Positions 6,749-51,212 of a stretch of 64,000 nucleotides of DNA are shown piece after piece. Location of the stretch: positions 310,001-374,000 of the forward strand of contig NZ_CP034692.1 of NCBI RefSeq assembly GCF_004114375.1, in the 5' to 3' direction. Made by a program: the position numbers and the translations under genes. Numbering within the stretch: the stretch's first letter is position 1; each line of letters begins with the position of its first letter. The stretch comes from Halorubrum sp. BOL3-1. GTDB lineage: Archaea > Halobacteriota > Halobacteria > Halobacteriales > Haloferacaceae. The notes below the pieces were generated by a model. It was not told the DNA's origin and did not search any database. It was given only the letters and a program-made list of their open reading frames with translations.

Positions 6749-6822
6749 CCGCCCTTAGCTCAGCTTGGTAGAGCAGTCGACTGTAGATCGACTTGTCCCC
6801 CGTTCAATTCGGGGAGGGCGGA
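6749..6822 (+). tRNA. tRNA-Tyr (anticodon GTA)
   Basis: A 74-nt cloverleaf. The acceptor pairs CCGCCCT with AGGGCGG, with discriminator A at 6822. The D arm has AGCTCAGCTTGGTAGAGC. The anticodon arm is GTCGA/TCGAC enclosing the seven-base loop CTGTAGA, giving anticodon GTA. The T arm is CCCCG/CGGGG around TTCAATT. No intron and no encoded CCA. A T-rich stretch (CTTCTTTT, 6823-6830) follows directly and may terminate the transcript. Two tandem repeats that carry the 3' half of this gene come next. Confidence 0.96.
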
Positions 6823-7042
6823 CTTCTTTTCCAGCCGATCTGTAGTCGACTGTGGATCGAGTTGTCTCCCGTCCTCGTGAGCGTAGCGAACGAGCAGGAC
6901 CGTCTCGGCGAGTTCAATTCGGGGAGGGCGGACTTCTTTTCCAGCCGATCTGTAGTCGACTGTGGATCGAGTTGTCTCCCGTCCTCGTGAGCGTAGCGAA
7001 CGAGCAGGACCGTCTCGGCGAGTTCAATTCGGGGAGGGCGGA
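6823..7042 (+). repeat. Two tandem 110-bp repeats containing an altered tRNA-Tyr 3' half
   Basis: Bases 6823-6932 and 6933-7042 are identical by eye. Each unit contains the anticodon arm of the adjacent tRNA with changes (loop CTGTGGA, giving GTG in place of GTA). An insert of about 40 bp follows that can fold as GTCCTCGT...ACGAGCAGGAC around a GAGCGTAGCGA loop. Each unit then ends with the exact last 21 bases of the tRNA gene (GTTCAATTCGGGGAGGGCGGA without its final base, plus that base). The D arm and 5' acceptor strand are missing, so these are not complete tRNAs. The array ends at a perfect palindrome, CGAAATTTCG (7043-7052). No gene lies in 6823-7174; a T-run at 7139-7145 could be a terminator. 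Confidence 0.93.
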
Positions 7043-7174
7043 CGAAATTTCGCACTTGTGAGCGACAGCCGGCGGGGTCGCGCACAGAGGCCCGTGTCGA
7101 TTCTCGTCGCGTTCGTCGAAAGGGGATGTTCCCGGCCTGTTTTTTAGGGGTAGGACCGCGCCCTTCAAACCGGT

Positions 7175-15542: not shown

Positions 15543-15586
15543 GCTCAGGCGGTTCGAACGCGGCGGCGCCGATCTGTAAAATAGTA

Positions 15587-15905
15587 CGGTGGCGCGCGCC
15601 TGCGAGCGGCCGGAGGCCGCGAGGAGCGCGTGCGAGGGAGTCAGTCGCCGGAGCGTAGCGGAGGCGACTGACGAGGCTGGGGAGGCCTGAGGTGCTGTGC
15701 GGGGCGGGACTCGAAGGGGCAGTCGCGAGGACGGCGCAGGCGACGTAAGGACCACGACGAGGAAGCGTAAGCGACCGAGTGAGGACCGCAGCGAGCGTGC
15801 GCCGTCCTCGCGACTGGGGCTTCGGTGGCGTTCGTGTCAATCAGCGATTCATAGGCAATGACAACAGCATATTGCCGAGCGACCGGGGCTTCGGCGGTCT
15901 CGGTG
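15587..15905 (+). repeat. Dispersed structured element, copy B (longest)
   Basis: It begins GGTGGCGCGCGCCTG. Hairpin 1 is GCGGCC-GGA-GGCCGC. Hairpin 2 is AGTCGCC/GGCGACT with a GGAGCGTAGCGGA loop. The core has GACGAGGCTGGGGAGGC and GTGCGGGGCGGGACTCGAAG. A long hairpin 3 has arms CAGTCGCGAGGACGGCGC and GCGCCGTCCTCGCGACTG. GGGGCTTCGGTGGCGTTCG and ATCAGCGATTCATAGGC follow, then a second GGGGCTTCGGCGGT. It fills most of the 448-bp gap 15543-15990. Confidence 0.85.
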
Positions 15906-45140: not shown

Positions 45141-45160
45141 CGCGGGATCAGCAGAACAAC

Positions 45161-45366
45161 GCGGTGGCGCGCGCCTGTGAGGCCGCGTCGCGGCCGATCA
45201 GCGTCGCGCGAGGGAGTCGCGAACAGAGTGAGCGACGAGGTTGGGGAGGCGTGAGGTGCGGTCGCAGTGCGGTGTGGGGCGGGGCGGTGTGGGGCGGTGC
45301 GGGACTTGAAGGGGCAGTCGCCGGCGCTGCGCGCCGGCTAGGGCTTCGACAGTGTTCTCGGTCGTG
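45161..45366 (+). repeat. Dispersed structured element, copy C
   Basis: GCGGTGGCGCGCGCCTGTGA opens it. Hairpin 1 is GGCCGC-GTC-GCGGCC; hairpin 2 is GTCGC-GAACAGAGTGA-GCGAC; the core is GACGAGGTTGGGGAGGCGTG. A duplicated GTGTGGGGCGG phrase (two or more copies) replaces the simpler linker. CGGGACTTGAAGGGGCAGTC, hairpin 3 (GCCGGCGC-TGC-GCGCCGGC) and GGGCTTCG follow. It fills most of the 315-bp gap 45141-45455. Confidence 0.83.
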
Positions 45367-50967: not shown

Positions 50968-51212
50968 CGCGGTGAACACCGCCGAAGCCCCGGCCGCTCG
51001 GCTGTCCGAGAGGGTATCTGTCTATAAATCGCTGATCGACGCGAACATTTCCGAAGCCCCAGCCGTGAGGCTGCCCCTTCGAGTCCCACCCCGCGCAGCA
51101 CCGCAGCCTCACGCCTCCCCAGCCTCGCGGCTCGCGCTCTCTGAGCGCTCGCCGCGTCCCTCCCGCGTGCTGCTCGGCCACGAGGCGGCCTCACAGGCAC
51201 GCGCCACCACGC
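50968..51212 (-). repeat. Dispersed structured element, copy D
   Basis: Read on the minus strand: GTGGTGGCGCGTGCCTGTGA; hairpin 1 GGCCGC-CTC-GTGGCC (a G-U pair keeps it); hairpin 2 CGCGGC...GCCGCG with an inner GCGCTC/GAGCGC; the core GCGAGGCTGGGGAGGCGTG; GGGGTGGGACTCGAAGGGGC. Hairpin 3 is short, CAGCC/GGCTG. GGGGCTTCGGAAATGTTCG, then GATCAGCGATTTATAGAC and a second GGGGCTTCGGCGGTG, follow. The gap 50768-51377 otherwise holds only the palindrome and promoter sequence. Confidence 0.84.

Follow-up and report, generated by a model that had tools for sequence, protein, structure and literature searches.

Background

The 3' ends of tRNA genes serve tyrosine integrases as attachment sites, the segment from the T-loop to the 3' end being of the kind used, and duplication of this end keeps the gene intact. 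In Escherichia coli, a tRNA-Tyr gene is followed by tandem repeats that each carry the tRNA 3' end (the tyrT repeats, or rtT RNA). Integron attC sites are imperfect palindromes that are active as folded single strands and that occur in tandem arrays.

Other palindromes are acted on by transposases. REP sequences, with their TnpA-REP, and the ends of IS200/IS605 elements are short, extragenic, strand-specific imperfect palindromes with conserved mismatches and a 5' guide (PMC8266576, PMC3733652, PMC5934647). In IS200/IS605 elements, the cleavage site base-pairs with a short guide on the 5' side of an imperfect hairpin, also when a target is chosen; IS608 has such a guide 5' of its hairpin and cleavage site (PMC5934647). 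TnpA-REP cuts REP hairpins, which carry conserved mismatches (PMC8266576). In the haloarchaeon Haloquadratum walsbyi, SMR-A and PATEs are gene-free elements of about 110 bp with inverted terminal repeats, and SMR-A inserts within palindromes, its targets being PATE and IS605-type ends (PMC3119063).

In this report, we describe palindromic units located downstream of haloarchaeal tRNA genes, beginning with an array in a 64,000-nucleotide stretch of the genome of Halorubrum sp. BOL3-1 (here called the window). The units share features with all of these systems. Like REP sequences and IS200/IS605 ends, they are short, extragenic, strand-specific imperfect palindromes, repeated in the genome, with conserved mismatches and a complementary stretch 5' of a hairpin. 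However, this complement is 10 to 13 nt long and tRNA-specific, in place of 4 nt, and the units are bound to tRNA 3' ends. Also, the GTAG tag that, with a cognate Y1 transposase, defines REP/TnpA-REP systems is absent from the aligned unit consensus, and the Y1 transposase family PF01797 is absent from several genomes that carry many units (G016, G005, G026 and G029). As judged by their descriptions, SMR-A and PATEs are similar in host group, size and lack of genes, and the insertion of SMR-A within palindromes recalls a subset of our units (type A) whose inserts sit in a T-loop, but our units are bound to tRNA genes. In contrast to attC sites, the units lack cassette genes and end in tRNA sequence, and none of 39 genomes has an integron-type integrase scoring over the TIGR02249 cut-off. 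The tyrT repeats are confined to a single enterobacterial locus and have a longer unit, and Rfam matches within the window were to tRNA only. Attachment sites of tyrosine integrases likewise involve a duplicated tRNA 3' end and an intact gene, but the units are gene-free, about 100 bp long and conserved in structure, carry a complement of the T arm and continue to track their tRNA. To our knowledge, no system among REP, PATE, SMR-A, attC, tRNA attachment sites and tyrT repeats shares both a tRNA-specific complement and a tracking tail.

Results

Two identical units follow a tRNA-Tyr gene

The tRNA-Tyr(GTA) gene lies at positions 6749 to 6823 on the plus strand, as predicted by ARAGORN (whose 3' end is used here) and Rfam. 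It is followed on the same strand by two 110-bp units at 6824 to 6933 and 6934 to 7043. A preliminary description of this DNA had proposed two tandem partial-tRNA units here, and the array proved to be as described: the units at 6824 to 7043 are identical, and the direct repeats at 6802 to 6911 and 6912 to 7021 have 100% identity over 110 nt. Each unit starts with a T-rich stretch and spacer, continues with a copied tRNA segment that spans the anticodon arm through the 5' T-stem strand (6844 to 6872 in unit 1, 6954 to 6982 in unit 2), then an insert (6873 to 6911 and 6983 to 7021), and ends in a copy of the tRNA from the T-loop to the 3' end (6912 to 6933 and 7022 to 7043). The anticodon-arm copy is identical to the tRNA at 26 of 29 positions and has the already noted change of the loop from CTGTAGA to CTGTGGA, so that the anticodon GTA becomes GTG. 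The terminal copy is exact, as was also claimed, matching the tRNA at 22 of 22 positions in both units; the 22-nt end GTTCAATTCGGGGAGGGCGGAC therefore occurs three times, at 6802, 6912 and 7022.

The insert required more revision. It was thought to precede the T arm, but its 39 bp in fact split this arm at the junction of the 5' T-stem strand (CCCGT) and the T-loop (GTTCAATTC). It does contain the anticipated hairpin, a small one (CTCGTGAGCGTAGCGAACGAG, 6874 to 6894 in unit 1), and also the 3' arm of a second, incomplete hairpin (GGACCGTCTCGGCGA, 6897 to 6911) that belongs to the family described below and whose 5' arm is missing; unit 2 has the same content. The loop of the insert was said to resemble the hairpin-2 loop of repeat copies A and B. 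This holds for the general GCGNAGC-type hairpin, but not for the exact loop, as GAGCGNAGCGA occurs within the window only in the two units. A dispersed extragenic repeat has three copies in the window, at 15560 to 15850, 45150 to 45350 and 51040 to 51210 (minus strand), which share GGGACT(C/T)GAAGGGGCAG and GC-rich hairpins. In this genome and in other Halorubrum genomes, the GGGACT(C/T)GAAGGGGCAG motif adjoins the family hairpin GGAAGTCGCAGC...GACCGTCTTCC. Conservation across the genus at non-tRNA loci, which the preliminary description had taken as a sign against its reading, was half observed: the inner hairpin is also present in dispersed extragenic repeats.

Immediately downstream of the array, a stretch at 7044 to 7070 (plus strand; GAAATTTCGCACTTGTGAGCGACAGC) resembles, by visual comparison, the first hairpin of type B units (described below) in related organisms (TGAATTTTGTACTTGTGAGCGACAGC in L012), and is probably the remnant of an older unit.

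A family of tRNA-bound palindromic units

The window units belong to a haloarchaeal family of short, noncoding palindromic units bound to tRNA genes. Family units are 75 to 100 nt long and lie downstream of many tRNA genes, of about 19 isotypes. In the standard form (type B), a first hairpin just after the tRNA is followed by an inverse complement of the T arm, an imperfect hairpin and finally a copy of the tRNA from the T-loop to the 3' end. In type A units, a 3' half of the tRNA is copied, and its T-loop is interrupted by inserted hairpins. The match of the T-arm complement is closer to its own tRNA than to other tRNAs (10.0 versus 8.7 of 12 positions).

An alignment of 12 units from several isotypes yielded a consensus of 21 base pairs, 14 of which exhibit two-sided changes; none of 500 shuffles matched the quality of this structure, and no slid version came close. 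Among 93 units with a recognizable core, the conserved sequence is AGTCGCAG...ACCGTCT or AGTCGCGC...CACGTCT, and the stem has a T.T mismatch inside and recurrent T.T or A.G mismatches further out. By eye, the hairpin loop is usually of the GCGNAGC type, located between GA/GA steps.

The window units are atypical members. They lack the T-arm complement and have only the 3' half of the imperfect hairpin, which explains both their weak covariance-model score (E-value 4.6e-4) and their ordinary folding energy as RNA (z-scores of -0.69 and +0.59, no stabler than shuffles), as would suit a broken hybrid. Their assignment to the family draws on matches to units of both types that follow this tRNA gene elsewhere in the genus.

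Distribution and position

A covariance model built to search genomes for units detected them in 36 of 39 relatives. Across 158 genomes sampled evenly from the phylum, the model found units in 25 of the 26 Halobacteriales, and the other 132 genomes had none. Genomes of the order without a model hit were G131 (same family, genus g18), G031 and G036, the last of which is only 76% complete; these are natural negative controls for tracing a linked enzyme. A pattern scan of named genomes gave matches in Halorubrum, Haloarcula, Natrinema, Natronococcus, Halovivax, Natronomonas, Halorientalis and others, and its matches outside haloarchaea look unrelated. Both tail and insert recur after tRNA-Tyr, not only in many genomes of this genus but also in further families of the order, and they are found downstream of tRNA-Phe, Ile, Ala and Ser as well.

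When 121 strong units were fetched with their context, 116 lay downstream of a tRNA on the same strand, representing 19 ARAGORN classes (one of them unassigned). All fetched loci together contain 170 tRNA genes with tail copies, comprising 147 type B, 13 other and 10 flagged as type A, although some of these 10 flags reflect merely a neighboring second tRNA-Asp gene. At least two tails follow 46 of the 170 genes. In the Halorubrum sp. BOL3-1 genome itself, 12 of 46 tRNA genes have a tail copy matching at 15 or more of 19 positions within 450 bp downstream (two of them being neighboring tRNA-Asp genes); this exceeds chance, given control frequencies of 2.7% (53 of 1964) for comparisons across tRNAs and 1 of 29 upstream. 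A locus of a different kind, G000:C3:891289-895524 (L068, L076 and L072), is a dense cluster of about a dozen low-scoring tRNA genes that possibly belongs to a provirus.

Tail copies track their own tRNA

The tail copy is 0.90 to 1.00 identical to its own tRNA at each of 19 positions, and identity drops sharply at both borders. A more stringent view comes from diagnostic sites, at which the same isoacceptor differs between genomes. Of 289 such sites, the copy has the base of its own tRNA at 271, that of the other genome at 5 and neither at 13; these counts are not independent, because related genomes share changes, and they represent 110 distinct classes across 19 isoacceptors. In the segment that lies beyond both the T-loop and most of the T-stem, the corresponding counts are 166 own and 3 other. 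The T-arm complement tracks more loosely (93 own versus 21 other). Old scars undergoing decay would not be expected to track in this way; gene conversion, repeated insertion or selection is needed to account for it. Similarity among hairpins is weakly raised both within genomes and by tRNA, and hairpins at the same isoacceptor are somewhat alike across genomes.

A probable hybrid origin, and tandem arrays

Positions 1 to 71 of the window unit are 87% identical to type A units of G015 and G003, and positions 54 to 110 are 98% identical to type B units of G021 and G007. The window unit thus looks like a recombinant of types A and B that was later duplicated. From the overlap of the two sets of matches, the point of recombination would lie at the shared GTGAGCGNAGCGAACGAG hairpin.

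Arrays suggest where new units arrive. The tail closer to the tRNA is the better match in 8 arrays and the distal one in 1, with 10 ties, and at L013 and L014 the tRNA is followed first by a type A unit and then by a decayed type B unit. Together with the type-B-like remnant after the last tail in the window, this order suggests that new units enter beside the tRNA. Tandem units at tRNA-Tyr are also present in G020 (two contigs) and G025 (one contig). At L191 (G025:C1:1263313-1263816, minus strand), four units follow tRNA-Tyr in a row and seem to alternate between two unit sequences (ABAB), as duplication of a pair would produce. In the Halorubrum sp. BOL3-1 genome, tRNA-Leu(CAA) (L081) is followed at about 110 to 310 bp by a repeat of its middle portion into which hairpins are inserted, a possible further type A array.

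Discussion

The units are found on the tRNA-sense strand, and this is also the orientation in which they fold better. A single-stranded molecule, be it a transcript or DNA, is therefore probably involved. We lean toward DNA, because a T-rich stretch follows many of the tRNAs, such stretches are a termination motif in Haloferax volcanii (PMC7237163), and hairpin copies are dispersed away from tRNA genes. Tentatively, and at somewhat less than even confidence, we infer that the units are a nonautonomous palindromic DNA element that acts as folded single-stranded DNA at the tRNA T-loop, with a logic like that of REP and IS200/IS605. This reading draws on the covarying pairs (14 of 21), the breadth of occurrence (25 of 26), the position after tRNAs (116 of 121), the sharp borders of the copy, its tracking (271 versus 5) and the match of the T-arm complement to its own tRNA. 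It draws also on the conserved hairpin mismatches, the IS608-like layout of the guide, the dispersed hairpins, the bias toward proximal tails and the matches of the window unit to both types.

In the proposed mechanism, the imperfect hairpin would be bound by a putative single-strand recombinase or transposase, and the guide would be the T-arm complement on the 5' side of the hairpin foot, pairing with the T-loop of the tRNA (the target) and with that of the copy (the element end). Insertion at the T-loop would give the tRNA a new, identical 3' end and displace the old one downstream. Under this proposal, the gene is not disrupted, the copy is obliged to preserve its match to the tRNA, and units accumulate in stacks. 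Excision would follow from cuts at the T-loops of tRNA and copy, and the tRNA would survive it unharmed, as it would an insertion; recombination between identical tails would produce tandem copies. Since several unit-rich genomes lack Y1 transposases, the proposal has to assume a different enzyme, or that no enzyme acts today.

Several observations count against this DNA-element reading: the absence of PF01797 just mentioned, the lack of any strain-level insertion or empty site among our observations, and the lack of a T-arm complement in the window's own units. Also, the greater stability of the hairpin as sense than as antisense RNA is predicted by an RNA function as well, and the likeness of same-isoacceptor hairpins across genomes favors vertical descent over frequent movement.

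It is possible, but unlikely, that the units function as RNA. A read-through transcript could fold the T-arm complement onto the T arm of the tRNA or onto the downstream copy, and serve as a 3' trailer attenuator, a decoy or a processing signal. This idea accommodates the sense-strand location of all units, the stabler sense folding of both whole units and the first hairpin, the covarying stem, and the excess of G.T over A.C at the first two positions of the T-arm duplex. However, the T-rich stretch that often precedes the unit is typical of haloarchaeal termination (PMC7237163). The units may yield tRNA-like fragments, as the preliminary description suggested, but the tRNA is followed by a T-rich stretch like those at which Haloferax ends transcription (PMC7237163). 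Against an RNA function, G.T pairs are rare in the hairpin stem (1 of 372 cells, compared with 10 of 595 in acceptor stems at the same loci), only a minority of tRNA genes in the Halorubrum sp. BOL3-1 genome have a unit, and the identical hairpin type is found away from tRNA genes.

Neutral upkeep is rather unlikely as a complete account. Here, old palindromes without present function or mobility would be kept alike by two processes, gene conversion between the tRNA 3' end and its copy, and template switching where palindromes are imperfect. Near-perfect tracking and two-sided stem changes are what gene conversion and quasi-palindrome correction would yield, and both are observed, with hardly any wobble intermediates; some hairpin similarity also follows the isoacceptor across genomes. 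But template switching would erase the hairpin mismatches, which persist across families of the order. Moreover, the repeats, at 19 to 22 bp, are short for conversion, and the units are nearly universal in the order.

The preliminary description interpreted the stacked tRNA copies as possible scars of repeated integration and excision or as an attachment-site array. Its observation of stacked partial copies with a common 3' end is correct, and both the repeated block of identity from T-loop to 3' end and the existence of tandem arrays suit that interpretation. We nevertheless consider plain scars of tyrosine-integrase elements improbable, given the presence of the unit after tRNAs of about 19 isotypes, each time with the tail of that tRNA, order-wide tracking by the tails, and structured content that is conserved at near-constant size. 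There is no integrase among eight proteins around the window array, the units are only about 110 bp long, and, as noted, an integron-type integrase over the cut-off was not found in the 39 genomes. BLAST searches of phages and plasmids with the array gave no relevant hits, and a scan of viral contigs with two hairpin patterns gave 0 and 2 matches, so that phage, plasmid and viral collections are essentially without units. An assembly duplication of one unit, which the preliminary description named as a possible refutation and which the 100% identity of the two units would fit, is highly improbable, as the window sits in a 3.37-Mb contig and similar tandem units follow the same gene in other near-complete genomes (G020, two contigs; G025, one contig).

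Extended to the whole class, the DNA-element reading becomes a bolder and more doubtful proposal: tRNA-addressed mobile palindromes whose single-stranded DNA would find the T-loop through a built-in complement of 10 to 13 nt, insert there, and recurrently swap in an identical tRNA 3' end.

We found no prior description of tRNA-bound palindromic units in the open-access literature, and a repeat carried by nearly every sampled Halobacteriales genome therefore appears to be undescribed. Since its copies keep pace with their tRNAs in evolution, the repeat would be either a mobile element that maintains the 3' end of the tRNA, or a place where gene conversion goes on continuously, or a trailer with a hidden regulatory role. 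A duplicated 3' end of a haloarchaeal tRNA should not automatically be taken as an integration site.
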